NCBI GenBank assembly: GCA_016490735.1
Contig: JAEMWC010000365.1
Location: 600,001-664,000, forward strand
Direction: 5' to 3'
From: Pachyseris speciosa
Taxonomy: Eukaryota > Cnidaria > Anthozoa > Scleractinia > Pachyseridae
Length of the DNA stretch: 64,000 nt
In this document: in pieces, positions 4,014 to 44,040 of the stretch
How the letters are laid out: each line of letters begins with the position of its first letter
Numbering within the stretch: the first letter of the stretch is position 1
The notes under the pieces: model-generated
What the model saw: only the letters and a program-made list of their open reading frames with translations
What the model was told of the DNA's origin: nothing
Databases searched by the model: none
Program-made: the position numbers and the translations under genes

Positions 4014-7000
4014 GTAAAATTTCTGCAGTTAAAATTGATTAGGCCAAGAGGGAAGGGGAGCTTATACAGCCTAGGTAAATTTGCCTGTTCCTTAATTAAG
4101 AGGCAGTCCCGCTAAAAGCGGTCCTCTCGACTTGGCGACCAAAAAAAGTTTTCCTTTATTTTTGACCATGAAAAGGCTTTGTTACACATGTTTAAGAAAT
4201 GCTATAATTATTTTCCAATTCTTTATATTTTTGCGCCGCCACAGGCCCAAATTGAATTTTGGCTCACCTGTCCGAACTGATAGCGATCGAAAGTGTAAAT
4301 TTCACAGATTTTGTCAAGCACGCTCTGACTGCAAAAATCTAGCTCACTGAATTATATTTTGCTACAAGTTACAAGGTGTATTCAGTTAGTTCACAGACTA
4401 AATATAGAAACTTACAAAAAAATCTTACGCGTTCCAGCGTGATTAGAAGACACCCTTCTCTTGAGCCTTAATTTGCATATCGAAAACTAACCATAAAAAG
4501 GAAGGAAATCTCAAAAGTTTGGCCTAAATCCTGATAAAAAAAAAAAAAGAGCAAAGTCTATACTCCAATGGACTCGTATATTGCTTCAAACCGGCGGGTA
4601 TCACCTTAGCTTCCACACACCACGAGCTCAAAATTGACGAAAATCCATGTGTTTACATAATTATCGTTGGTGTCAAATACATTTGCATAATTCTAAATTC
4701 CGAAAACATGTTTTTTTCACCGTTCAGATTCTTTTACTGGCCTTCTAAACAATGGGTCTGAACTTCTTTTAATGATTGTATGCAATAGAAGTCTTGTGTT
4801 GTGGTAAAACGTTGCGAAAACATTATCAGTCTTTATGCCTTGCGAGACCCACAAAGTAAACATTGGCAGTTGTAAGTAGTCTATCAAATAAATTTCGTTA
4901 GTTCACCTTGTAAACCATGACATGGAAAATACCAAATTCTAAAGTCAAAGTTTTGCAATTTGGTAATTGTAGACGTTATATGCATCTTGAGGGAACACAC
5001 AAACATAAAATACATTATGCTAATAATTTTGAAACAACCACATGCAAACATACACTCACGGCCTGCCCACTGAGAAAATGCTCTGAATACTTCTTGCAAA
5101 CACAAGCGACCCGATTCAATGGCACTACTTTCTGCAAATTTCTTTCTATCATTGATGGTTTTCATGCGGCTGCACGTTGCAGTACTACTTCCATGCAGGC
5201 GCTGATCCACGGGAGGTGAAATGAGTGAATTTTCACCCCCCCCCCCCCTTTTTTTCTGAGCCCCCCTTCTTTCTTTCTTTTTATTTTCTTATCCCTCAAA
5301 TATTCAAATAATATTACGTTTCGGGATTGTCGCGTACGCTTTTTGACTTTCTTGGGAAAAACCTTTCCCGAAACAGCTGTATATTAACGGGAAAAAACTC
5401 GGTTCGTAACTTATATGTACGAACCTCTGAACTCCTTTAGCAAGAAGTATATATTACCAGAAATTTGCGACATCAAACTTCGCGATGGTTATGCATATGA
5501 TTGCTGATGGGTTGGATAGATCAAGAAAAAAATCACTGTACTGTGACTTCTCGATACTTGGCCCATGTAAGAACAGGAATTTTGCATGTAATAACATAGT
5601 ATTATTTTATATATATATATATATATACATTGTAAACAATTATTCACATATAAGTGGAGGCCGGTGGAAAGTGGTAGTTCGTGCCGCTCGGAAAATAAGC
5701 AACACTATTCCTCGAGAACGAGGTAGACAATTATCGTTTTAAACCCAAGCAGTAGACAACTATCTTGGATATAGTATATAACTGAATGGCCAATCAGAAT
5801 GCGCGAAAACTTTTTTTTCCCAAGGTACGTGTTTTGACAATTTTTTTCATACTTTCCAAACATATACGAATGAAAAGCTGTCGCTCCGCTTTTATACTTG
5901 GGCGATTGTTTCTCATTTAGAAGCGGACAGAGTTTAAGAGAAGACATAAATAAACGATTATTCAAGTATCAACGGATCCAGTGACTGATGGATGGCTAGA
6001 TTGATGGAGGGAAGGACCAGGATAGAAAAGATAGAAAGAAAAAAAAGATAGAAAACTTTATTTCATCACGGTAGTTTTGTTCAAAAAAGGTAAAATACAT
6101 TATTTAGAGCTAAAATACAATTAATGTTTAATTTATACAATGGATAGATCGATGGATTGATGCATGCATGCATGCATGCATGCATGCATGAACGGATGGA
6201 TGGCTGGATAGATGGATGGATGGATGGATGGATGGATGGATGGATGGGTGGGTGGGTAGATTCATGTTCCTTTTTGTAACGTGTTTTGTTCCTTTTTGTA
6301 ACTTGCGTTACTTTTTGTAACTTGTGTTTGGTTACGAAAAGGAACCTATGTTCCTTTTTGTAACCAAAGGTTACGAAAAGGAACATATGTTCCTTTTCGT
6401 AACTTAATAAGGTTACGAAAAGGAACAAGTGTTCCTTTTAGTAACTTAGTAAGGTTACAAAAAGGAACAAGTGTTCCTTTTAGTAACTTGATAACGTTAC
6501 GAAAAGGAACAAGTGTTAGAAACTCAAGATAATACTATTTTAAACCGGTATTCGTGCACTATATTATCCTGTAAGCTTCGATAGGAATATTCTTATGGAA
6601 ATAAAGACTTGCTAATTGGAAAATTTAGAGTTTTGCAGAGTTTTAAAAATGGAAGTAAGTCAAATACGTAACAAGGCATATTGCCCAGAAGAGGTGACAT
6701 CAGACTAAAGGGGTTCGTCGACACCAGTCCAGAGTAAAAGACGCTCGGCAAAGAGGAAATACCATGTGCTATGTAGTGAAGATGGTCAGAGTGAACACGA
6801 CACAGGTCCTCCATCGCCCAACAATGGAAGGAGAAGCATCTTCCACGTTCAAGATGTACCACCACATCGAAACCCTGCTAATTTACGGGGAAAACAGCCA
6901 TTTTACACTGGGATGCTGCTGGAAAGGAAATCAGTCCATTGGAAGAGACAAGGCAAGACAAGAATGGTAACGATGATGATGATTAAACAATCGTCGTCAG

Positions 7001-10000
7001 CACAGAGAAACGCCTAACCAGAAAGATCCCCGGGGAGGGGGGGAGGGGGGAGGGGGCTACTAAAAAACATTTAATTCGGGGAGGCTCCGCCCCAATGTCC
7101 GACCCCTTACCCTTTTATATACCATTTTTGACGGGAAAGGTACCCCTTTCGTATACCTTCCATTAGAACAGTACAGTCATTAGGTATGTGTGATCGAAAT
7201 ATTTTAATGAAAGGCCCTTTTAAATACCTAAATGGCAGAATTCCCTACCCTTTTATATACTTCGAATCGGAAAATCCCTACACTTTCATATACCTGAAGC
7301 GTGAAAAAGGTACCCCTTTCGGACGGAGCCTCCCCGTATAGGCCATTATAGGGAGTGCCCCCCCTCCCCCACCACCACCACCACCACCACTCGCCCCCCG
7401 GAGAAAGATCAAAGAAGCCAGTGGTGGGTTTTTTTGCAGAAGATGGGAGTAGCGAAGATACCGGTAGTGAAGACTGTATGTAGAGGAGGAAGCTGTACTT
7501 CCACATCGAAGCCCTGGTAGCTTACGGGGAGAGCAGATACTTCTTCACTGCGGGATGCAGCTGGAGGTGATGTTACTCCATAGGAAGCGACAAGACGAGA
7601 CAAGAATGGTGAGGACGGTGATCTTACAGTTGAAGTCAGCAAAAAAAAAAAAAAAAAAACAGTGTTGGTTGTTTTGCAGAAGATGAGAGTAGCGAAGATA
7701 CTGGCGATGATGATGATTATAAACCTCAAGATGACGAGAATGACAGTGAAAAGGATGAGGAGGTGGAAGATCAACGTGAAGATGACGAAGAACACCTAGA
7801 GAAGGTTAGCGACAAGACGCCAAGTCAGAGGGACCACTGCTTGATGAGAGATCATCTTATCACACGGCTGGTAATACTCGCCAACATGACGTTCGGAGAG
7901 CTAGCGAAAGCAACGCCAGATAAAGGTCAGATGGTGGTGAAATACAGGACGTTGACCTCTCTTGGACCTGCTCATCTGGTTCTGAGCCCTACCATTTACA
8001 CGTGGCTGCAGGCATTCGTAAAGGTCATGCGAAACAAAATACCAGGTGCAGGGACGAGCAGCGATGATCATGTCTTCATCAGCTCTACTGGAAACGCAAT
8101 GTCATCAGTCGTCCATGGGTTGGCGTAGCTGAACTTATTTTGGCAGAAAGCAACGGGTAATGTACTTGTCAGGGTGAACGCGGCGGCGTTTAGAAAGGCA
8201 GTAGTTTCCGCTGTACATGAAGAACATGGGCATCTGAAGAAGGATCTAGCAGACCTGATGGGCCACAATTAAAAGACAGCAGAAGAGTTCTACCTTATCC
8301 GTGCAATATCATGTACAGATCAGACGGAAGCTGAAGAAGAAGTTCCAGAGTGAGGTGGTGTCCCAACAGCAAGGTAGGTAGGAAGATCAAAGGGATCGGA
8401 ATTTGAAAAACGGTCGGCATCGCTGGACAGATGAGGAGAATGAAGCAGTGGAATCGGCATTTGAAATGGCTGTCAAGGAGAAATCCATTGATATACAAAC
8501 AGTAAAAGACATCGTTCCAGGGCACGAAATCCACAGTAAAATCGACGCAAGCAAAGTTAAGTCAGATGCTTTATAAAGGAAGCGGGGTCAAAGGAAAGTG
8601 GGCCAGCTCTTCCGACTGAGACTGAACGCAGCAGGACAAACTTCATCGCTTGTTCCTGGACGAGAAGTCAGAGGTTACGTCATTAGTGAGCCGTAAAGGA
8701 GGAACGACCTTCACAGATCATCAAACAGAAAAACATTGGTGGTTGTTTGGAGATTATATCGAAAGCAATGAAAGAATTACCCAAAATTATCTGAAGACCA
8801 CGATTGAAGAAGAAGATGAAGCAAGAAAAGATATGTTGGTTTTACGCCTCAGCAGCTTTTAGACAGTTGGGACAGAGCGAAGGAAGATTGCGCGTCTTCA
8901 AGATAAAAAAAGAGCAGGTCATCACCGGTAAGCACACTTGACTTGTATGCAATGCTTCGAGTGTACCATGACATAAGTTAAACACAGCTGTATTTACCAT
9001 GTTTCTTTAGAATAGTTTTGCCTTAAAATTTTAGAATTCAAGGGCTCAAAAAGACACTGAGCCATTGCAGCTAGAACGAGCATTTACATTCGTTAAGAAA
9101 GCCCATTTCATAGCTTAATTACTGTTGCTGTTAATTTAATTAAGTAAAGCTATTTTAAGGTTAAGTGGCTTAATGTTATTTCGTTATAATTGCTGAGCCA
9201 CTGTAGTTAGAACGAGCTTTAACATTCGTTAAGAAAAACCATTACATAGGTTAATTAATGTCACTCTTACTGTTAATTTAACTAAGAAAAGCCATTTTAG
9301 GCTTAAGTACTGTTACTGTTATTTCGTTAAAATTGCTTTTATTATAGAGCATTTGTTGTTAAAAAGGTATATGTTGGATTCTCTGAGGTGGCATTAACGT
9401 TACTTAATACCACTTGCAATATTATGATCACAAACAAAATTATGAGAAGCTCTTTTACCCTGTAGAAGGCCCAACTTACGGCATGTTCCTTTTTGTAACC
9501 TCGAGATTTCATGAATAAAATAAAAGACACGAACTTTTGGTAAAAGTGCATATATTCTCTTCACTCAATAAACATTATGCAATCAGGAAATGAAAGAAAA
9601 TTGTCATCAGAAAACTAACCAATAATTTTTGTATTGTACCCTATTCCACACTCTGCAATTGTTCCTTTTCGTAACATTAGCGCATTTCGAGTGCATTCGG
9701 GAAAAAATTAAAAACTCCCTTTTACATGGCATTACGATGTCAGTACTTTCACATTACATCGACAGAAGGGCAGGCTATATGATTCAATAAAAATCTTCGA
9801 TAGCCATGGTTTTAATAACCTAAAATATCACTTCGCATGGATTGAATAGATTTAGCAACATTTTAGCAACTTTTGTGTCTTCAGATAGCATTACCTTCCT
9901 GCGAAAGAGTCGCGTAAATTCTTTAAAACACAGCGAGATATTTCCAAACTCCTTGGACAATGTTGTAAGCTATTTGTCTTGATGTCCAATAACTTAAAGT

Positions 10001-12093: not shown

Positions 12094-13560
12094 AACTGTA
12101 TAAAAATAAATGCAGTCTTTAGAGAACAAATTCAGCAAGTACGTGTGCGAAAAAAACGAACCCAAAATCTTGGAATATCAGAGTCAGTAGTGCAAGGGCC
12201 GCATCTGATGTGCCTGTGAGTGATTGAATGTCCTATGAATGCCTAACAGAAGCCTAGCAATAAAATGTTTCTCTACCATGTGCACGCCAAATAATCGCAC
12301 AGCTAAGATACAGAATTCTCTGAAGTTATCTCATTTGTGTAGAACACTCCGGGGTGTCCGGCGTAGTGGGTTCGGCATTAAAAAAAAAACCAAAGTCACC
12401 ATGTGTTCACATATTGTTCTGTAAGGAAAATAGTTTCGTTTTATTTACCGATGTATCAAAAAGTAGATTTCCGTAATCCACTGTTCGGTATTGAAAATCT
12501 TGATGACAATAGAGTGATTTAGAATCACGTCTATGGCAAACCAAAACTTCCCGTTTACTCAAGGTTTGCAGTTCAAGAGAGGACGAGGAGGGGTATTGAC
12601 TTGGCCTGAATTCAGTATTTCTCTCTACAAACACCGAGTGAAATAGTTTAGGCTTGTATTTATTAGAGAGAGAATTTTGAAAAATGACCATAGGTTTTCA
12701 TATGAGGTTTGCGCTTAAAGCCAAACAAGTAAAAGCAACTTTTAAGGTCCACATTTGTTTTTAAGGTTATGGAACTTTAGCCGCCTATTTATTTCAAAAT
12801 GCAGTGATCTTTCAAAGCCACCTTGAAACACTGTTTAATGTATGATCATAAAATGCTTGTTATCACGTAAACCCGGCAAGCAGCAAACGCTGCTTCACCA
12901 TTCGCGCATGACGCAAACGTGATTCGAAATGTCGCTAATTTAAAATTCAGTAATTTCTATAAATTTACTGTTCCAGCCAGCCATACCAAACATAGTAATT
13001 TTCCAATGCTTTATTCCTCCCATCCGAGAGATATATTAAAATTCCTATTTTACGCCTATTATAGCGATATTAGAATGTTTGAGTTATGCTTACAGAGCTT
13101 TTACGCCCTCAGCTTGGGATATTTTAACCTTGAGCACACCCATTTCGCTAATACCCCATATATTCCGTGGTGGTCGATACAATTCTGATAGTGAAGTAGT
13201 TTTGGATACAAACGTACGTTTAGGGTAGTTGTGCGAACTTTATAGAAGAGTGGTTTTGCAGGGGTGTGCAAACAAAATCGTTGTACATATATATAGTTTA
13301 AACTTCGAACTAAACATTTTCGTTACAGATTTTGTTAACCTTAAGACATTCTTCTTCACTCTTTTAACCCTTTAGTAAGGCAAGCTTCTGTCATCATCGT
13401 CATCATCAGCATTATGATCATCCACGTTTCCCAAAAGTAATTACAACCAAGATTTTGCCATCAAATTAATCTTTTTTGCTTGTTTATTTTGTTTTGGGTT
13501 CGGCTGGGCAATTCTTTTCATTAATAACTTCTGTACAGTTTGATGAGACACCAGAGATAA
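12094..13560. other. Downstream of the trefoil gene; partial exon-4 copy, otherwise empty
   Basis: AGTGCAAGGGCCGCAT at about 12188-12203 repeats the end of exon 4, followed by a decayed TGTGCCTGTGAGTG. Nothing else was recognised; the open frames at 12407-13188 lack motifs. Confidence 0.5.
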
Positions 13561-13580
13561 TTTGTTTTTGAAAATCAAGT

Positions 13581-14165
13581 GTTCCGCGAGGTCTTGGGTT
13601 TTGTTCCTTTAAATGATTTAGGAACAAATTAATCATGCACATAAAGGAATCCGTTCTTAGGAACAAATGTCAGCTAGATTTGGAACCAAAGTTCCCGTTG
13701 TTGTAATTGGGAACACACTGTTCCTATTTCTTTCAGTAAAAAGGAATAATTTGTTCCGTTAATATTTTTAGGAACAAAAGTTCCTTTTCATGCAATTCCT
13801 TTTTTTTTTACAATTTGTATTTAATTTGACTTCGCACTTAACTCAATGAGCAACACGTTGCCCCTCTTAACCGGTATATTACATTATTGGCAACGATACA
13901 AAGGAACAACTGTTCCGTGGAAAGTGTTCACTGATTTGCGAATGGGAACGCCAGCTGTTCCTTGTTGAATGCCTTTTGTTCCTATTAGTGACACAGAGGA
14001 ATAATTTGGTTCCTGATCACATTGGACCTATTTCCATTGAATAGGAACCATGGTTCCGATCTTAAGCTGCATAAATTGCGGTGTTAGAAAACAAGAAAAA
14101 ACGTTCCATTTCATTATAGGATCTGCAAGTAAGGAAACGATGTTCCTTTTTAGCGTTAATAAACT
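13581..14165. repeat. Cluster of GGAAC/GTTCC palindromes
   Basis: More than fifteen GGAAC or GTTCC words occur in under 600 bp. Palindromic pairs include GGAACAAAAGTTCC at 13771-13784, GGAACAACTGTTCC at 13903-13916, a longer one at 13944-13961 and GGAACCATGGTTCC at 14044-14057. The core is the same GGAAC-N4-GTTCC as at 6.3 kb, but without the GTTAC outer arms. Confidence 0.75.
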
Positions 14166-14402
14166 TGAATTCACGTTCCGAAGTTGTCGCTTATTACAGG
14201 AGCCAGTTTTCTGTCTCTCTAGCAGACCATATTTTTCTGATATCCTGAACCATTTTGTCTGTCCGGCTTGCTGTCTGACAACAAGTCACATCTCTTTGAC
14301 AAACCAGTTTGGCCTGTCACGTCCATGTCAATGTCCAGGTCCTTGGGCGGGAACATGCAGGTTCACAAAATGTCCGGATATCTTGGGCAGGACCATACAG
14401 GC

Positions 14403-14430
14403 AAGACATGCTCATGATTGAGCATGTCTT
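14403..14430. repeat. Short hairpin (AAGACATGCTC arms)
   Basis: AAGACATGCTC at 14403 and GAGCATGTCTT ending at 14430 form 11-bp perfect arms around a 6-base loop, about 190 bp upstream of the recombinase ORF. It could be an element end, a regulatory hairpin or chance. Confidence 0.5.
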
Positions 14431-14593
14431 ATTGTTTCGTGAGGTGGCAACTGGTAAGGAAAAAGAGGTGGCGGGCAAGATTGAGCACGTTGAGGTAGAT
14501 AAGGAGGAGAACATCATTAATTGGTCAAAAGCCGATTGTGACCCTAAGAGAATCACGTGTAACGATATCAGTATGTATACGAGTCTTTGGTGA
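14431..14593 (+). other. Open frame just upstream of recombinase pseudogene B
   Basis: A Lys/Glu-rich reading frame (EVATGKEKEVAGKIEHVEV and onward) runs to TGA at 14591 and overlaps the start of the recombinase frame in another phase. Codon-like regularity and the phrase INWSKAD near its end suggest it may be the original N-terminal part of the recombinase, separated by a frameshift near 14570. No domain is recognised. Confidence 0.35.
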
Positions 14594-14617
14594 GCTTACA
14601 TTTATTTCCATTTACGA

Positions 14618-16303
14618 GATGAGTGGACGAAAAGCTGAGATAGATTGGTCAAAAATAGCAAATGCATCTCCAAGACCAAAGAGACTTCACTTAGAAGAAG
14701 ATGACGTTGATGGTTTGTTTCGTTGTCCAGTGCAAGAGTGCGGCCACGATGGATTCATATCTCAACGAGGCTGTAGAATACACGTAAAGAAAAAACACAG
14801 TTGGTTCGATTATTTTGATGAAAAGCCATCAAACGCCCACATTCAAGCAGGAAAAAGTATAGAAGATGTAGAAAAAGATGCAATAGCGGCAAACGTGGTA
14901 AAGTCTGTACCCACGTTTGATCGTTCAAGTTCAATCGTAGAGGAACTCCTATCGTGGCTTACAGGTAGTGGAGGAGGTTGCAAGAGTGAACGTCAATCGC
15001 AGCAAATCACTAGCAAATGTCTCAAGTTTCTCAAATTTTGTTGCAAGGACGAAGAGGAGCTTTCCTTGGATATTATTGACTTTAGCTTATGTTCTTCTAA
15101 CCTTCTCTTTAAATTTGTTGATACGATGCAGGACGAGTGGAAACTTGGCCACGCGGGACGCATTGGCTATTTAGACGCCATTGCTGAGCTGATGGACTTC
15201 AGAAAGGTAAACGGAGCATCCGAGGTTGTACTGAGGGACCTGTCCTCCACGGAAACATACTTAAAGAAGGCCCGTAAAACAGTTTCGAAAATGATGCGAT
15301 TGCAATGGACGAGTGAACTCGACATAGACACCTTAGAATCGAAGGGACACTGGGCTACGCTGGATGAGCTCTTGGAAGTTGTCGCGCGTTACTTGCCCCG
15401 CTACGAGGTCGTGCTCAAGGCGTGCAAGGACAATCCAGGTGCAGTATCACCACTGGACTTGTCCTTCGCCACCAAATTTCTCGCGGTATATTTGTTTATC
15501 AAAGTTAAAGGTTCCCGCCCAATGACTTATCAGTATTTAACCGTTGAAATGGTGCGTACTGCTAAGACTAACGGTGGATTTATCGATCAGAAAATGTTTA
15601 AAACAGCGGGCAAGTATGGCTTAGATTCTCTTTTCCTAACAGACACAAGCATGCAGGTATTGGAAGGCTACATTGATTCAATTCGCCCTTTGTTCAAGCC
15701 GGCTTGTGATTATGTCTTAGTGATGAGGAATGGCGGCTAACATAATAAGCTTGGGGAGCTCATGAGCAAGCTAGTTTTTGACGCCACCGGAAAATACGTC
15801 CACCCTACTCGTTATCGACAAATAGTTGAGACAGCCAGTTCTAAGAAACTTAGTAGCAACGCACAGGGCACGATTTCCGAAGACCAGAAGCACAGCTCCG
15901 TTGTGGCAAGAGTGCATTACCAAAATCAAAGATCGCGGGAAGTCGCGACCAAGGCGCACGAATATCTGGAAACACTTTATGGCGAGAAGGGATCAGCCTT
16001 AGAGATGGATCTTCGATCAAAACTTTCAGACAAATCTTCGTCCTCTCCGGAACAAGGAGAAGATTTTGGAGGGTCTTTAACCGAACAAGCCGATAATTCC
16101 AGCACGCCTAAGTTAAAATGAAAGAATGCTGTAAAATCGCCCGATTCTTGTTCAGGAAAGAAAATTCTTCTGTTCACTGCCGAAGAGGATAAATATTTGA
16201 AGATGGGACTAGATCGCCATGGTTTCGGAAATTGGACAGCAATACTTAGAGACCCAGATTTTTATTTTCAGAAAGGACGCAAACCGAACTCTAAAATTTA
16301 GTT
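14618..16303 (+). pseudogene. Zinc finger - tyrosine recombinase - SANT protein pseudogene B
   Basis: One frame runs from ATG 14618 to TAG 16301 and is interrupted only by TAA 15738 and TGA 16119. Near residue 36 is a C2H2 finger (CPVQEC, then HVKKKH). Residues about 110-510 hold a tyrosine recombinase: box I Arg in VMRNGG just before the TAA, box II HPTRYRQIVET, then a His and the presumed nucleophile in ARVHYQNQRSRE. After TGA 16119 the frame continues with a Myb/SANT repeat (TAEEDKYLKMGL, HGFGNWTAIL). Members of this recombinase group move DNA circles (Cryptons and relatives) or act as integrases. It converges on the SF3 helicase pseudogene with about 330 bp between ends. With only two nonsense changes in about 560 codons, it died recently. 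It has no introns. Confidence 0.7.
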
Positions 16304-16633
16304 CAAAATGTACTAAACCATAGCAAAATAGGTTATTGTTTAACGAGGGCAACTTACATTAAACATTCATCTAATGAAATTCAGTTAATCTTAGGTCAAC
16401 TGTCTAAGAATACTTTACAAGTCATCGCTATTAACCATACGTTTTCTGTGCCATCAGTTTCCCAGCAGATTCTCTACCAACACAGGGCATAACTGATACC
16501 ACAATTCCAGTTATGACAGTTATTTTCTTTATTTCAAACAGACAAAAATCAGTTAGCGTACAATTGACTAGTTTCTCGTTTTAAATTCGATAACTTGGTA
16601 ACAAATTTCTTCATATGTTTGGAAGTTTCTTGC

Positions 16634-19608
16634 TTACTTATGATAACATCGATTTTCATCGTTGGCTAAGTTGAAAAAGTTCGAAATCCTTCCCTTCTTG
16701 GGCACTGCTGGCATGCTTGCTTGTGATTGCCGTTTTCTAGATTTTCCTCTTCGAAGAACGGTTTGGCTTGCGATTTTTGGTGTTGGTGTCTGGGAACTGG
16801 AAGAAGGAGTGATGAAAATCTCTTCATCGTCGCATTCTTCTCCATAGAATGGGTATGGCATGGGTGCCCATACGCTTGTAACACGTTCGGCCTGTTCGTT
16901 CGAAATCCACTTCATCTCCACTGCTCTTTTCTTTCTTTCCTCGATTACAAGTCTCGAAAGGCCAGGCAACTCATCTCTTTTATAATTTAACTTGAGGGCT
17001 TCCACAGTAACACCGATTATGTAATGAACAGCGCATTTTACATCCTCATCTCTTGCAGTCTCCTCTCGTTCTTGTAGCTGTCGTACTTCTTTTTCCTTTG
17101 CCCACACCCACTCGTTCTCAAAGTATTTGGACGCTTTATTCTGCAAATTTTCTGCTCTTCTTCTTTCTTTTTTGAGAAGTACTCTTGTCTTGAACGTTCA
17201 ATTCTGGGATGGTACGGACCTCCAACCGTCTCCATCAAGTGAAGCATTCCCAGAGATATCCAGTGTTGTCTTGTCTCGGCAAGAATCCGCGCCTTAGCCC
17301 GTTGTGCTTCATTTTCTCTCTCCTTCGTAGCCCGCTTCACTCCAGCGGCAATGAGCCCCAGTTGCCTCTGTGTTAGACTGTTGCATGGCTGCTGATCTCG
17401 AAGCTCAAAAATCTTCTCAAGAGTACTCTCCCATCCGTCAGAACACGTTGAATCAGCATCAGAGTTTACTTGGTTGTCTTCTCCCTCAGACATATCGTCG
17501 TCTTCTACTACGAGTTGCCCTTCCTCGACACTTGCTTCTTGGTCGCTTTCACTGTCTTCCAGGTTCATCGTTTTGATTCTATCCTTTTCCTCTTCATCAA
17601 ATTCATTTGGCTTTGCAGCTGACCCAGGCACTGGAGGGGGAAGCTCATCATCTCGCGTACGAGCGACTCTGCTTGCCCAAACAATACAGTCCATTGCGCA
17701 GTCTCGTAATGACTGTTGTACTCCTGGAACTGGTGGAGAGTTGAGACTTTTAAAATGGAACTTGCGTAGACGCGCATCCATGGCCGCGTTGTGCTCTTCC
17801 CCGAAATCCATTTCTGTTTGGCAGATGATGAACATGGGGCATCGAATTTCTTGTTGGCTAGAATTTCTGTTTTCTCGATCATGAGCTGTAAGTCCTCCCT
17901 GCGTCAAAATTAAACTTTCCAGTCATCTGGATCTAAGAGCTTCGCGTATGTCTCATCCATGAAGATTACTTGGGTCTTTTAGTCAACAAGACTCTTGTTA
18001 ATGGCCTTCTATTTAGTTATCATGACGATGTACCTGTCAATGGAAACACAAACAACTTCAATTGTATAAAAAAAATCGCGTGTACACTCGATCTCTAAAT
18101 ATGCTCATTTTAGAAGAACTGAACATTTTAGAAGGACTGTTGACTCTCTGACTCTTTCACATTTTCTATTCCAAAGACGTCAAATACCAAACCAGCTCTA
18201 GTAAGTGCCGGGATTGCTCTGTTTTGCAATCCCGATGAAAACACGGGACTTGCAACTTGCAGGTGGATCACACGTTCACTGCCGTGAATTGACGGAACAG
18301 GTTCTTCCAATATCTGCGATTCTAGCGCCTCTAAACAATTCTGAAATGACATATCAACTTTTCTTTGCATGAACCTGTTATTGTGGTCTTTCACTGTTGT
18401 GCACAAGGGAGCCACTGCATTTTCTTCCTTTCCTCTCGTACATTCTTGTACAGAGCTCGGTAACAGCTCAAACGCCCCTCTCAAAAGTTGAAAAACACTT
18501 CCGAGTTTGTGCTCAAACTTTCTACCAGATAAAGCAGACAAAACCAAAACAAAACAGCAGCAGCAACAACAACAACAACAAAGGCAAAAAAGCAGCAAAT
18601 ACCTAGTAGGAATTATCCGAGTGATTGGGGTGAATAGGCTTGTTTTCCCACTGTTTGGTTCCCCAATTAAGCACATGACTTTCTCTTTGTGTTGTTTAAT
18701 TCCATGATTTAGGAGGCGCAAGTAGTATTCGCAGAAGTATGTCACATCAGTCGGACTTAAAATGTTTTGCATAATTTCTTTAAAGTACTGTACAAAAGCT
18801 CGCGGACTTTCTTTGCCAATTTCTTGAATAGGGTTTTGTTTGGACAAATGTTCTTTGACTGAGCGAGAAACACCAACCTTTCGACACTTCAATTAAGCCA
18901 TAGTTGATTCTTAATTTTTTCGTAAATTCGCACTCGGGGGTAGCCAGTATAGATTCAAGCTTGCTGAAATTAGTGATGATAATCTTCTTCAATTGATCGT
19001 TGTTTGCCAGGACTGACAGGAACTTTTTGATCGAGGACGCATGTTCGAAGGTATACATCGAGGCTACGTTTTTCTCAAAAACTTCGCCTTTGTGTAACGA
19101 GTAGCCCAGTTTTGCCATGGCTCTCTCAATTTTGTTTAGTGCGACAATGACAAGGGACTTGGACAAGGCACTTCCAATATTTAGCTGTCACTTCCATGCC
19201 TGCCTCCAGAAGCGCTGAGTGAACTGGGATAGGTGACACTCTCAGGCTATCTCTGGATTGGAGAGCTATCCAATACGATATTGCAGGCTAATAGATCTTT
19301 TTCTTTCTCTGAGAAGTTTTTTTCGCCGTTTCTTCGTCACCCTCTTTGTCTTCTTCACATTCGTTTTCCTCAACTTTCTTTTCCACAACTGCAACTGAAG
19401 AAAAGAAAAATGCCATCTGTTTGATTTTCTTCATGGCTTTGTCACACTCGTCTCGTTTAGCAACGATTTGTAACCACAGCTTGTCTGGGTCTCTTTTTTC
19501 TTGAGATGTGTTGTAGGTCACTTTGACTGAGATCACTGAACATTTGTCTTCAACGATGGGTAATACTTTGCTTACAAGAGCACTTCGAATATTCTGCAGG
19601 AGAGTCAA
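16634..19608 (-). pseudogene. Superfamily 3 helicase-like ATPase pseudogene
   Basis: Several minus-strand frames join into one decayed gene. From N to C: a Lys/Glu-rich start (19608-19290), an alpha-helical region (19166-18900), Walker A GEPNSGKTS at 18638-18664, Walker B VIFMDE near 17955-17972, a motif C-like CPMFIICQTE near 17815-17850 and an arginine-finger-like MDARLRKFHF just after. This order is that of SF3 helicases. An acidic linker, a basic coiled-coil-like region and a basic tail with RISNFF near 16660 follow. A 569-nt intron (18034-18602) between Walker A and B restores frame. Damage: frameshift near 18890, stops at 18009-18011 and 17979-17981, a 5-nt shift near 17910, frameshift near 17150. 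SF3 helicases initiate replication in small DNA viruses and plasmid-like elements. Confidence 0.65.
18034..18602 (-). other. Inferred intron inside the SF3 helicase pseudogene, with a long open frame
   Basis: Donor AG/GTATTT and acceptor GACAG/GTAC put the RIIPTR and YIVMIT codons in frame across the gap. The intron contains an (ACA)n/(GCA)n tract at about 18555-18585 and a 470-nt open stretch with no recognised domain, which may be inserted foreign sequence or a lost exon. Confidence 0.5.
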
Positions 19609-20060
19609 ACAAAAAAAGAAACGTTAGCACTCTTACTTGAATTCTATGCAAGATTTCACTCTTACCCTTAGACTAAACTGTTAAAGCACTGTTGAGCTGC
19701 CTAGCAGGAGCACTTGCCATCACGATTTCAACTTTATAACTGACGAGAGCAACTTTCAGCCTTTCGCTTTTATATCATTTCAGCTAATAGCTGATTTAAA
19801 TTCTGACACTCTCTTTTGTTTCTCGGAGTATCCATGCTATTTGAACGAAATAGCGGTACGAAAATGCTTTTGGTATTTCATTCAAGGGCTCCAAAGCTTT
19901 TAGTAGGTAGCGAATACCGAACGCTGCGAAATGAACAAATTTTGTTAGCTTTGAAAATTAAATATTAAAACTTTTGTCAGATATCCAATATCTTTGAAAG
20001 AAACGCATCCTTGCTTTGAAAGCAATGAAAAAGTATTCTGAAAAAGAACGATTTCATGAC
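19609..20060. other. Nothing recognised; possible right flank of the composite element
   Basis: AT-rich sequence without motif, repeat or open frame of note. Confidence 0.35.
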
Positions 20061-20092
20061 TATTTTTGGAGGAATTCAGTAGTGACGGTCGC

Positions 20093-20560
20093 AAAAAATT
20101 TAATAAGATATTCCAAACTCGTCAGTGTAAAGAAACAAAAAAGCGTGCAGTCCAGTGCACTGGCTGCAGTTGTATCCTACCCCAAATAATTCAAACTAGC
20201 AAAGAAAGACCAAAGTATGTCATTAGCAATGCGCCAGGAATATTAAGAAAGTGTGAACAATCAAAAGATGGATGTAAAAACATTGACATTAACAATTTCA
20301 CTTTCTGTAAATATTTGAGCAAGCAATGTGCTGCGTCCATTGTTTTGGTATGACTGTTTTCGAGGAATTTAATTTAGTGAATGTAGCATATTAAAATAAG
20401 GTATCCCAAACTCGTGCAAGGAAAGCATGCCGTCCATTGCACTGGAAGCAATTGTATCATACCCCCGAAACAATTCAAAATAGCAAAGAAAGACCACAGT
20501 ATGTCAGCAATGCCCAGGGAATGTTAAGAAGGTGAGAAAGATCAAACGATGGATGTAAAC
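20093..20560. repeat. Tandem duplication, about 300-bp offset
   Basis: 20110-20290 and 20400-20565 share CCAAACTCGT, GTCCANTGCACTGG, AATTCAAANTAGCAAAGAAA, GACCANAGTATGTCA and GGATGTAAA in the same order. The first copy holds a 95-codon open frame with several cysteines; the second is disrupted. No function is assigned. Confidence 0.6.
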
Positions 20561-20719
20561 GCCTTGAATTAGCATTTTTTTTTTCTTGCAAGTATTTTTG
20601 CAAAATACTTGTTCTGCTTTGAGCAACAAATTCCTCGAACAGAATTGCATGCGCAACCACGTAATATTACAGAAATATTAAAATACTATTTAACAATACT
20701 AAAAGATGATGCCATTCCT

Positions 20720-21055
20720 AACTCTTCATAATACAACTGTAAGTGCTGTCTTCATGGCTCCGTCATATCCACCATGCTTCAAAAAAATTCATTCAACTCC
20801 AAATTGCCCATTACTCAAAACAACACAAACAGTAGATAACGAAGACGCACTTGCAGTAAGATAGAGAGGTATTATTCAAAGACTTTTATTATGGTATTCA
20901 GAGATCTGGAAGTGCTGTCTCCGCGTATCCGTCATATCCACCATACTTTAAGAAATTCATTGAACTCCAAGTTGTCCCCGACACTAAAATATCTCAGATA
21001 AGACGGAAACACAGGAGATGACGGAGATACACTTACAGTAACATAGGGGATATAT
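20720..21055. repeat. Second tandem duplication, about 180-bp offset
   Basis: 20735-20870 and 20908-21055 share GTGCTGTCT, CCGTCATATCCACCAT, AAATTCATT, AACTCCAA and an ACACTTRCAGTAA block. Both copies end before a TA-rich run. Confidence 0.6.
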
Positions 21056-22099: not shown

Positions 22100-23250
22100 C
22101 ATTTTATACAGACTTGACGTTTCGTATGCTAGGCAACATACATTTTCAAAAGTGACCGTTACAAGTTTTGAAAACTGTTTATATACTTTTAATACAGGGG
22201 TCTGGAACCGAGATTAAGGGAAACTATCTTAACAGTAAATATGTGAAAGGATCAACAGCTTCTCACTACTAATGTTTACATTAAAAGCTGTCTTAAGTTC
22301 TTGGATAAATAAGGTTTCCTTAATTTTGCAATGATAATCGGTTTTGCCGGACGCTAAAATGTCAAAATGATCCCATGCCACTTGATGTTGTGCCCAGTGG
22401 TTTCAACGTGGTCAGCAATAGCTGATGTGTGGTCATTTTTAGCGAGGGCCTTGAAATGTTCAGTTTTCCTGTCATGAAGTCTTCTTTTTGTCTTACCGGT
22501 GTAAAAATCAGTGCAGTCCCAGCAACCGGCCTTATAAATAACTTTAGACTTCTTCTAGAGCGGTTTAAGTGGTCCTTGTAAGGAAAGAAAGACTTGATGC
22601 GGAGAGTGTTCTGAAAAACTATCTTAAGGTTGACGCAGGAGTACAAAATGTAAACACAGGATCTTAGGCGTTTAGCGATTTGGTTGCTCTGTAGACCTAA
22701 GTAAGGTAACAGGATGATTATATCTTTCTTAGGAACTGTCAAGACAGGGCTGTTGGGCTTGTTTCTGTTTCTGTTCAAACCATCGTTAATGTTGTAGGTA
22801 ATTATACCTTGAGGGTAACCATTTTGTAGAAGAAGTTTCCGGAGATCATTGAGAGCAGATTGCAATAAAGAAGGCGTGGAGCAAATTCGATAACAATGAT
22901 AAGTGAGCGAACAAATGAGATTAATTTTGTATTTGCGCGGTGTGAACGAATCCCATTTGGTGTAGAGGCCAGTGAATGTCTTCTTCCGGTAAATGGATGT
23001 CTTGAAGGTGCTGTTCTGGCAGCGTTTGTGTGTCTAAAAATGGAATCTCGTTGTTCTGTTCAAATCTAATAGTGAATTTGATGCTGTTGTGACGACTGTT
23101 CAAATACTGTAAAAACTCATTCGCAGTGTCTTTACTGTCAAACATGGTAAAGGTGTCATGGACGTACCTATACCATACGGAAGGACGAACTTTACCGCTC
23201 ATGACCCATCTTTCTTCAAAGTGACACATGATTCTTCTAAAGTTAGCAAA
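22100..23250 (-). mobile_element. Penelope-like element fragment, RT end plus GIY-YIG endonuclease
   Basis: Reading leftwards from 23250: the reverse transcriptase palm (RPSVWYRYVHDTF, where the catalytic motif expected as YVDD reads YVHD), then FLDTQ and LRKLLLQNGYP, then a GIY-YIG-type module (CWDCTDFYTGKTKRRLHDR near 22470-22530, assembled from two frames) and a HTSAIADHV block. These are the hallmarks of Penelope-like retroelements. Frame changes near 22560, 22860 and 22920 and the altered palm motif show it is dead. At the 3' end, 22118-22150 on the minus strand has a degenerate hammerhead-like core (GAAAC with a GTATG/CATAC stem). The 5' part is missing beyond about 23250. Confidence 0.75.
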
Positions 23251-31260: not shown

Positions 31261-31386
31261 CGAAAATTTGGTATATCAACGAAGTTAATAATGTAAATTG
31301 ACCACCGTACAGGGATTCGATTAGCTGACGTTTCGAGCGTTAGCCCTTCGTCGGGCTAACGCTCGAAACGTCAGCTAATCGAATCC

Positions 31387-31417
<31 letters not shown>

Positions 31418-41701: not shown

Positions 41702-41887
41702 GCATATGAACCCACAATTGACCTGCTCCCAACGTCAGTGGCTTTATAGCTCAGTTGGTTAGAGCATCGCACCGGTAATCGCGAGGTCACGGGTTCAAAC
41801 CCCGTTGAAGTCCTGGATTTTTTTCAGGCTTCTTTTCGCAATTGCATAAATTGCGTTCACAACTGCGAGGATCATTCTTCATTTGAT
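41702..41887 (+). mobile_element. tRNA-derived SINE, copy 1 of a tandem pair
   Basis: The tRNA-like head at 41740-41813 has an A box (TAGCTCAGTTGG), a B box (GGTTCAAACCC) and a 7-bp acceptor-like stem. The anticodon arm has an 8-base loop without U33, so it is not a working tRNA. A GAATTTTTTTCAGGC-like hairpin and a GCGTTCACAACTGCGAGGATC tail follow. Confidence 0.75.
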
Positions 41888-41951: not shown

Positions 41952-42137
41952 ACATATGAACCCACAATTGACCTGCTCCCAACGTCAGTGGCTTTATAGC
42001 TCAGTTGGTTAGAGCATCGCACCGGTAATTGCGAGGTCACGGGTTCAAACCCCGTTGAAGTCCTGAATTTTTTTCAGGCGTCTTTTCCCAATTGCATAAA
42101 TTGCGTTCACAACTGCGAGGATCATTCTTCATTTGAT
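41952..42137 (+). mobile_element. tRNA-derived SINE, copy 2 of a tandem pair
   Basis: Same 186-bp unit 250 bp downstream, differing from copy 1 at only about five positions (for example GGTAATT for GGTAATC). The shared CATATGAACCCACAATTGAC leader suggests duplication of the whole unit rather than two independent insertions. The tRNA-like part is 41990-42063. Confidence 0.75.
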
Positions 42138-43627: not shown

Positions 43628-43779
43628 GACGTCGTCGTCGTCGTGCGCGCCCACGAGCAATACCGCTAGCCATTTTTACCATGAGAAAAGCAGTTGACGA
43701 GTTTCTATAAGTATGGTGCTCCGCTTGGCAGCACTGCGGGCCGCCTGAGCTCCGCTATAAACGAAATGAGTCGGGTCGT
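42913..43779. other. Intergenic DNA, nothing recognised
   Basis: A (GTC)n run near 43629-43642 is the only simple repeat. The open frame over it is arginine-rich by composition only. Confidence 0.4.
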
Positions 43780-44040
43780 CAATTGCTGTTGACGACCCGA
43801 CTCACCGGATGTCGGGTCGTGAAGATTAAAAAGGAAGTAATGTTTACTGCCGGAAGTCAAATGGCCTGGGGCACCGGATGTCAGGTCGCAAAGTTTAAAA
43901 AAGAAGTCAGCTTTACTGCCGGAAGTCAGACGGCCTGGGACAGCTTCAAAGATCTCGACGGATCGTGACGATCCGATCAGGTTGTGACTGTGACCCTTCA
44001 TTTGAAAAGTCGACCCGACTACTGGAAATGTCAGGTGGTT
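43780..44040. repeat. GTCGGGTCG/CCGGAAGT repeat complex, copy 2
   Basis: CACCGGATGTCGGGTCGTGA, GCCGGAAGTCA and CACCGGATGTCAGGTCGC alternate with AAGTTTAAAAAAGAAGTC-like spacers. Same vocabulary as 26618-27020. A LINE begins at its right edge. Confidence 0.65.

Follow-up and report, generated by a model that had tools for sequence, protein, structure and literature searches.

Within the window, the 64,000-nucleotide stretch of DNA that was analysed, lies a worn copy of a mobile coral element with two genes, one for a recombinase-like protein and one for a virus-type replication helicase. Comparison with the units of relatives places this copy at 13417 to about 21050, with the right end absent. 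The initial annotation had drawn it too small, at 14403..19608, but was right in describing two decayed, convergent genes, whose ends lie tail to tail about 330 bp apart. Its proposal that both genes arrived in a single insertion fits the shared left end and the existence of relatives with an identical end-to-end layout. One such relative, C273, extends ~1.6 kb beyond the point where the window copy stops (about 21050) and reaches the right end. Complete units in the window's genome measure about 8.2–9.4 kb, and in the three units examined (one complete, one nearly so, one seen in part) no large frames occur besides the two genes. The window copy has the following features (+ and -, strand; none given where no strand applies).

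13417..13424 (+): left-end spacer ATCATCCA, made up of ATC from the host side and ATCCA from the element; same place and near-same letters in relatives of the window's subfamily
13425..13436 (+): recombination-site arm at the left end, CGTTTCCCAAAA; inverted match to the relatives' right-end arm TTTGGGAAACG
13426..14318: iteron-like array, putative replication origin or regulatory site; 22 GGAAC/GTTCC words in 892 bp
14403..14430: perfect palindrome, 12-4-12, seen in the window copy only
14619..16301 (+): decayed recombinase-like gene with C2H2 finger, tyrosine-recombinase-like middle and Myb/SANT end
15516..15518 (+): codon for the Arg in SRPMTYQYL, the residue proposed as first catalytic Arg; 119 of the 120 relatives listed have R here, with XerD-like spacing
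15801..15812 (+): HPTR box (His-x-x-Arg)
15891..15920 (+): KHSS ... HY, with the putative second His and, 9 residues further on, the putative nucleophile Tyr
16163..16292 (+): Myb/SANT-like repeat; TRF2 Myb domains are the nearest solved sequences
16670..19596 (-): decayed SF3-type helicase gene in several frames, one part displaced, from tblastn with relatives
17812..17845 (-): motif C-like CPMFIICQTE followed by Arg-finger-like RLRKF, from motif alignment
17951..17968 (-): Walker B, VIFMDE, from motif alignment
18135..18454 (-): displaced helicase coding stretch in the gap after Walker A, equivalent to unit positions 5525–5844 of C273
18638..18666 (-): Walker A, GEPNSGKTS, from motif alignment
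19597..21050: right non-coding part with diverged repeats, from comparison with C273

The two genes

Window positions 14619–16292 align to residues 1–560 of a 576-aa relative (P0002) with 81% identity; because the alignment is a single piece, this stretch has no frameshift, and it carries two in-frame stops (15738–15740 and 16119–16121). Searches returned 758 relatives of the gene, far above chance, and residue conservation was counted in a list of the best 120 of them. Six residues, R301, K329, H396, R399, H426 and Y435, are each retained in 111–120 of these 120 relatives and make up the R-K-H-R-H/W-Y set of tyrosine recombinases in order and with the usual spacing (R-95-H-3-R-27-H-9-Y, compared with 96-3-23-9 in XerD). 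Such a residue pattern was present in 35 of 3000 shuffles and in none of 159 helicases. The initial annotation had named the HPTR and HY boxes, whose residues are indeed conserved, but also took the Arg of VMRNGG as catalytic; residue spacing makes this improbable, and the first catalytic Arg is probably the R of SRPMTYQYL instead.

Among the Pfam, PHROGs and NCBIfam profiles there was no tyrosine-recombinase match for this family. Its hhalign comparison with five bacterial recombinases was not significant, an HMM built from these five scored the family like its own reversed copies, and the structure model was poor (pLDDT 44). The window's own protein pieces matched no Pfam family above the cut-off. 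We call the product most likely a tyrosine recombinase that also carries C2H2 and Myb parts for DNA binding because of its residue spacing and the anatomy of its site, in place of profile support. The core site of a tyrosine recombinase consists of two 11–13-bp inverted arms and a 6–8-bp spacer (excerpts of PMC3212892), and the site described below likewise has two inverted arms and an 8-bp spacer.

The helicase gene of the window copy is shuffled, with 320 bp (18135–18454) lying out of order within a non-coding gap. One stretch of this gene has 82 relatives, far above chance. Two relatives exceed Pfam cut-offs, P0149 for the papillomavirus E1 helicase (PPV_E1_C, 33.9 bits versus 26.5) and P0145 for parvovirus NS1 (Parvo_NS1, 24.4 bits versus 20), the latter match spanning the SF3 core only. 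An insertion derived from a parvovirus would be expected to encode NS1 together with its rolling-circle nuclease, next to a VP gene. Four of the six relatives scanned singly scored lower: three match below the cut-offs and P0127 matches nothing. Within the helicase alignment, 14 of 20 members match the E1 family and 13 of 20 the NS1 family at E<=0.1. The structure model was poor, its matches to solved structures being common helical arrangements only, and the sole viral fold match of this weak model at E<=0.001 was the D5 primase/helicase (7.9e-4). The helicase has a PCNA-box-like tail. Walker A, Walker B and motif C follow one another as in SF3 proteins, and P0149 and P0145 clear the E1 and NS1 cut-offs; this places the ATPase within SF3, as had been proposed from its motifs. 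A helicase of the replication-initiator type (E1/NS1/D5-like) appears to be the best explanation for this gene.

The SF3 matches are to virus families, and Polinton-like viruses can carry a recombinase together with an SF3 helicase, as would be expected if the element were a degenerate viral genome (Polinton-like, virophage-like or parvovirus-like) left with integrase and helicase once the capsid genes were gone. We consider such an origin very unlikely, given the lack of further large frames in the units described above. Moreover, pattern scans of IMG/VR viral contigs and of a separate collection of genome contigs, which may omit records near the window's genome, found no relative, and the named relatives of both genes come from corals and one sea anemone.

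Gene pairing across the genome

Twenty loci from three subfamilies of the window's genome (984 Mb) were surveyed from the recombinase side. In 16 of them the recombinase gene is followed by a convergent SF3-type helicase gene, which is truncated in some; three others have a 65-aa helicase remnant and one has no helicase. Of 45 helicase loci, 18 face a recombinase among the matches listed, compared with 0.06 expected by chance. Six of the other 27 were checked, and five proved to have a recombinase and one a recombinase fragment. Among the best matches listed for each gene, 92 of 110 recombinases have no helicase inside 6 kb. Taken singly, both families are multi-copy in corals, which would suit two unrelated repeat families adjoining by chance, but the counts from both sides refute this reading and leave it a negligible probability. 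The convergent pairing put forward in the initial annotation is real, and the genes are not apart in most loci examined.

The element matches more than 100 places in the window's genome, partly in head-to-tail chains joined at a lox-like site. The recombinase and helicase matches listed also share exact contig sizes in four cases, plus three noted by eye (358430, 2264954 and 8205 bases); only the 8205-base contig is short enough to suggest gene linkage in another assembly, and the coincidence may be due to chance.

Helicase-deleted copies recur (L037, L038, L042 and L045), and therefore the helicase is not needed in cis. These copies occupy several places, their recombinase parts are 98–99% alike to those of full copies, and described animal Cryptons have the recombinase as their sole gene (excerpts of PMC3212892). 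All this would be consistent with a Crypton-like transposon that moves by recombination alone and carries the helicase as an ancient passenger with another role or none. We nonetheless find this unlikely, as helicase subfamilies only 31–38% identical to each other keep alignable Walker A, Walker B and motif C, and the helicase-deleted copies retain the left end (L038 also the iterons) and may be copied in trans.

Element ends and a proposed cycle

Comparison of whole loci for conserved ends and empty sites, which the initial annotation had envisaged, revealed inverted 11–12-bp arms at the element ends and one probable empty site. The left arm CGTTTCCCAAAA at 13425..13436 is its sole exact copy within the window. 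Between tandem units the junction reads TTTTGGGAAACG-ATCTATTA-CGTTTCCCAAAA, a lox-like site of 12-8-12 layout; its 24-bp core is present in 62 places at <=2 mismatches (33 of them exact; none in the reversed control). Among the matches listed, 27 of the 62 lie 1088–1245 bp ahead of a recombinase match on the same strand. Full core sites were found one unit apart, at 8694/8695, 9373/9374, 9370, 9681 and 7701 bp, and such tandem units would fit a free replicating circle. Some near-identical arrays may represent two haplotypes of one locus.

Joining the flanks of L038 across one TC yields a 23-mer that is found 31 times in L038's own flanking repeat, from which we infer the empty site. At their junctions the ends act as though they overlapped by 2 bp (TC), and one of 15 left ends (L029) has no TC. 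A 2-bp overlap suits serine recombinases better, since tyrosine recombinases exchange 6–8 bp; together with the missing profile matches, this could point to a site-specific enzyme of some other, unrecognised fold. The six conserved residues in classical order and spacing and the 12-8-12 core site make this decidedly unlikely, and such an enzyme would leave the rest of the preferred explanation unchanged.

The array at the left end of the window copy has 22 GGAAC/GTTCC words, compared with a shuffle mean of 1.7 and a largest shuffle value of 6. All five copies counted carry 19–32 words per ~0.9 kb (shuffle mean near 2), and two other subfamilies have the same kind of iteron-like array. The palindrome at 14403–14430 was considered as an attachment site and rejected: it is rare by chance, yet its exact pattern occurs in none of 20 other copies.

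Independent insertions are much alike (L027/L028, 99.4%; L037/L038, about 97–99%), and near-identical copies with intact frames suggest recent activity; therefore, circles can be searched for directly. Between L040 and L046 dN is 0.10 and dS 0.88. The close copies L027 and L030 have nearly equal values (dN 0.012, dS 0.013), no constraint being visible at such a scale, and two wider pairs are saturated.

The gene pair, its layout, the ends, full core sites, tandem units, iteron array and intact near-identical copies are all observed, and from them we infer the recombination chemistry, circles, replication and iteron binder of the following cycle. The recombinase would unite the two inverted terminal arms as the lox-like 12-8-12 core site, releasing a circle. 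The helicase, bound to the left-end GGAAC iteron array, would open this circle, and host polymerases would copy it. Circles would then be inserted by the recombinase at TC dinucleotides, often within CT- or CAT-rich repeats; alternatively, a circle could enter the core site of a resident copy and produce head-to-tail arrays. We think it likely that the window copy is a decayed two-gene integrating element of this kind, combining a Crypton-like recombinase with its own replication initiator in a self-replicating circle that integrates at TC. There is an even chance, in our judgement, that the family represents an animal nuclear self-replicating integrative plasmid: capsid-free, with two genes, an SF3 initiator, an iteron origin, a lox-like site, TC integration, site-bounded tandem arrays and an unusual 2-bp overlap.

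Comparison with known systems

Among the open PubMed Central papers listed by full-text searches, none describes such an element in its title or abstract opening. Elements of the Crypton kind leave copying to the host, as the described eukaryotic ones carry the recombinase. The coral element seems to supply the replication initiator and the origin itself, following in an animal the logic of a bacterial integrative plasmid or P4-like satellite. Because of its paired genes and the chains joined at a lox-like site, it may be viewed as an animal counterpart of bacterial integrating plasmids. It would make an animal plasmid accessible to testing and corals a source of a natural lox-like recombination system, and it might connect recombinase transposons with viruses that code for SF3 proteins.

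Like Crypton DNA transposons (CryptonA in animals), these are multi-copy eukaryotic DNA elements whose recombinase has the R-H-R-Y set. According to excerpts of PMC3212892, Cryptons include non-autonomous copies; those of animals have only the recombinase and lack both terminal repeats and any additional C-terminal domain, whereas fungal and oomycete Cryptons end in direct repeats of 4–6 bp, a C48 peptidase being added in some of those from oomycetes. The coral element differs, as the initial annotation had supposed, in its SF3 helicase gene (16 of 20 loci), and also in its C2H2 and Myb parts, inverted 11–12-bp arms, lox-like junction site, iteron array and site-bounded tandem arrays.

In phage P4-type satellites and bacterial integrative plasmids, a tyrosine integrase is paired with an iteron origin and a replication initiator or a helicase, which in P4 is of the SF3 kind; both circular and integrated states exist. 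The coral element resembles them by anatomy only, in its integrase, initiator, att site and iteron origin; unlike them, it resides in an animal nuclear genome, has no recognised primase domain and shows no sequence relation.

With Polinton-like viruses and virophages it shares a recombinase and an SF3/D5-type helicase in an integrating element. Those viruses carry capsid genes, whereas the three coral units examined have no further large gene. Their size is 14–40 kb (abstract of PMC12220804), compared with about 8.2–9.4 kb and two genes in the coral units.

As in Cre-loxP, inverted arms flank an 8-bp asymmetric spacer, in a 12-8-12 arrangement. The loxP site itself is 13-8-13. Unlike Cre-loxP, the coral element enters unrelated TC-containing targets, and its two ends have only 2 bp in common.

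The gene pair and its copies

The window copy has its left end but lacks its right end, and it holds the two convergent, decayed genes that the initial annotation described, with ~330 bp between their 3' ends, which lie tail to tail:

14619 (ATG) to ~16301, + strand: decayed first gene (recombinase-like), two in-frame stops
~19596 to 16670, - strand: decayed second gene (SF3-type helicase), split into several frames

In the second gene, a displaced coding stretch of 320 bp (18135-18454) now lies inside the non-coding gap after Walker A, which is probably an intron. The window copy and the copy on contig C273 are 90.9-97.5% alike across their six largest same-strand pieces.

The assembly containing the window (984 Mb, 2368 contigs) has at least 110 first-gene matches (110 of 675 candidates were scored). 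We sampled 20 ten-kilobase regions from these, 10 of the window subfamily (89-95% identity), eight at ~67% and two at ~65%, and judged the presence of the helicase by tblastn with nine helicases. A convergent helicase adjoins the recombinase in 16 of the 20 loci, its first part being missing in L029, L031 and L036. At L037, L038 and L042 the helicase is reduced to a 65-residue remnant, and L045 carries the recombinase twice, with no helicase detected by this search. Between these four helicase-deleted loci and full copies, the recombinase parts are 98-99% alike; the deleted copies were perhaps copied in trans. Searching the whole assembly with one helicase query gave 64 pieces, corresponding to 45 loci, of which 18 are convergent to a listed recombinase (0.06 expected by chance); one of the other 27 has a listed recombinase near but not convergent, and 26 have no listed one within 6 kb. 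These pairing counts rest on locus lists that comprise the best-scoring places only, and some listed loci may be two haplotypes of the same locus. Six of the 26 were inspected: five have a convergent recombinase and L053 only a 27-residue fragment. Among the loci examined, all in the window's own genome, the two genes are not mostly apart, the outcome that the initial annotation named as refuting. Contigs C998 and C97 also carry inverted pairs of copies ~5.1 kb apart, either real or assembly hairpins.

Copies L027 and L028, whose flanks are unlike, are 99.4% alike, and L040 and L043, with surroundings in common, 99.8%. The recombinase frame is intact (566-574 codons) in six chosen copies. For L040 versus L046, dN is 0.10 and dS 0.88; for the close pair L027 and L030 the values are 0.012 and 0.013, and dN/dS is saturated for two wider pairs.

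The two proteins

The first protein has 758 relatives, the best 120 of which were examined; the second has 82 for one 294-residue stretch and 146 with a 20-member profile (best 120 of 146 examined). Full-length relatives have ~575 and ~865 residues, respectively. The few named ones come from the corals Porites lobata, Oculina patagonica and Desmophyllum pertusum and one sea anemone, Actinostola.

In the first protein a middle part separates a C2H2-like finger from the Myb/SANT repeat at the C terminus. This repeat was detected in 21 of the 22 members of alignment A1 of the protein's relatives (member 22 is incomplete) and is closest among solved sequences to TRF2 Myb domains. The middle part contains R301, K329, H396-x-x-R399, H426 and Y435 (numbering of the 576-residue relative P0002), each conserved in 111-120 of the best 120 relatives, with misses that are mostly gaps. 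The residue distances in the alignment are 95, 3, 27 and 9 versus 96, 3, 23 and 9 in the bacterial tyrosine recombinase XerD; a loose pattern with such distances was found in 108 of the best 120 relatives, in 35 of 3000 shuffled sequences and in none of 159 helicase relatives. None of the libraries and profiles tried (Pfam, PHROGs, NCBIfam, hhalign, HMM) recognized the protein as a recombinase, and its structure model is of poor quality. We consider it very likely to be a tyrosine recombinase. The arginine of VMRNGG (equivalent to R371), initially taken for a recombinase box, is on spacing probably not the first catalytic Arg; a weak hhalign match aligns its surroundings to XerD 175-216, beyond the first catalytic Arg at 148.

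The SF3 class proposed for the ATPase agrees with curated profiles: among six helicases scanned, one scored above the E1 cut-off and another above the NS1 cut-off, and the helicase relative P0127 had no match. At E<=0.1, the E1 and NS1 families matched 14 and 13 of 20 alignment members. Pfam PF19263 is among the precomputed annotations of some distant relatives. The sole viral fold match at E<=0.001, from a query model with a mean pLDDT of 50, was giant-virus D5 primase/helicase. Each SF3 motif was found by pattern in 85-92 of the 159 helicase matches, many of them fragmentary, and 74 of these 159 have a C-terminal tail such as GRITHFF, which we take to be PCNA-box-like.

Ends, core site and target

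Homology between copies stretches well past both genes (pairwise blastn). The left end of the window copy lies at 13417-13436, rather than at 14403 as initially annotated.

Ends, junctions and unit lengths of the element
Window-subfamily left end (window 13417-13436): ATCATCCA-CGTTTCCCAAAA
Window-subfamily right end (contigs C273, C696, C144): GTTTGGGAAACGATC
67% subfamily ends: TCTATTACGTTTCCCAAAA and TTTGGGAAACGATC
Junction between consecutive units (L040, L041, L043): TTTTGGGAAACG-ATCTATTA-CGTTTCCCAAAA, two 12-bp arms with 8 bp between
Two-gene unit lengths: ~8.2 kb (L041), 8.7 kb (C1431 array), 9.2-9.3 kb (C696, C273), 9.37 kb (C1785 array)

The sequence left of the L041 junction is different, which suggests that junctions of this kind are common to unlike elements. 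Genome-wide, the 24-bp core occurs 62 times at <=2 mismatches (33 exact; reversed control, 0), every mismatch being confined to the spacer. Full sites spaced one unit apart form pairs or series on contigs C178, C1431, C1785, C1829, C743 and C2361. Twenty-seven of the 62 stand 1088-1245 bp ahead of a listed recombinase match in identical orientation; the other 35 (e.g. on C268, C394, C454, C1326 and C1978) have none listed behind them, which suggests other subfamilies or non-autonomous elements sharing the site.

The left-arm pattern recovers 15 left ends among 21 copies, including three tandem junctions; in the remaining six the left end is changed, missing or masked. TC occupies spacer positions 2-3 in 14 of the 15 (the exception is L029), and ATC directly follows all seven right-end arms that have no intact left arm after them. 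CAT, CT, CTT or CCT repeats surround several copies. Fusing the L038 flanks across a single TC yields a 23-mer that occurs 31 times in the surrounding minisatellite, and the empty site therefore would have had a single TC. Tyrosine recombinases do not usually work with an overlap of 2 bp. Of the conserved ends and empty sites that the initial annotation looked to, we thus have arms common to copies and one inferred empty site.

Just inside the left end, a stretch of ~0.9 kb contains 19-32 GGAAC/GTTCC words (five copies, three subfamilies) versus a shuffle mean near 2, an excess not found in the L040 helicase gene or the right part of L027. The cluster looks like an iteron array, and we therefore propose a putative replication origin there. 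The right part of L039 has 266-bp tandem repeats. The right non-coding end of the C273 unit (contig ~891-894 kb) contains a large imperfect inverted repeat, with reversed matches to window 20620-21050. An ORF scan (>=90 aa from ATG) of complete C273, near-complete L040 and partly seen L046 revealed no convincing third gene; smaller frames overlap the first or second gene or simple repeats.

Elsewhere the window contains:

6388-6427 and 43767-43804: perfect inverted repeats, 16-bp arms
22354-23033, - strand: frames that include a GIY-YIG-like stretch (YKAGCWDCTDFYTGKTKRRLHDR), possibly the end of a Penelope-like retroelement
31288-31411: perfect inverted repeat (59-bp arms, 6-bp loop) that is probably a small MITE-like element
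41740-41813 and 41990-42063, + strand: two tRNA genes, 250 bp apart

Comparison with known systems

Judged from sequence alone, the anatomy of the coral element is that of an integrative plasmid, with which it shares an integrase, an initiator, iterons, an attachment site and tandem accretion; we infer that it would be excised, form circles and replicate. Parvovirus-related sequences are reported from one cnidarian species (PMC5013282). Cryptons are the closest kind of eukaryotic element described. Animal Cryptons, according to PMC3212892, encode the recombinase as their sole protein and lack terminal repeats, whereas the coral element adds an SF3 helicase, paired at 16 of 20 loci, and terminal arms, in line with the contrast initially drawn with ordinary Cryptons.
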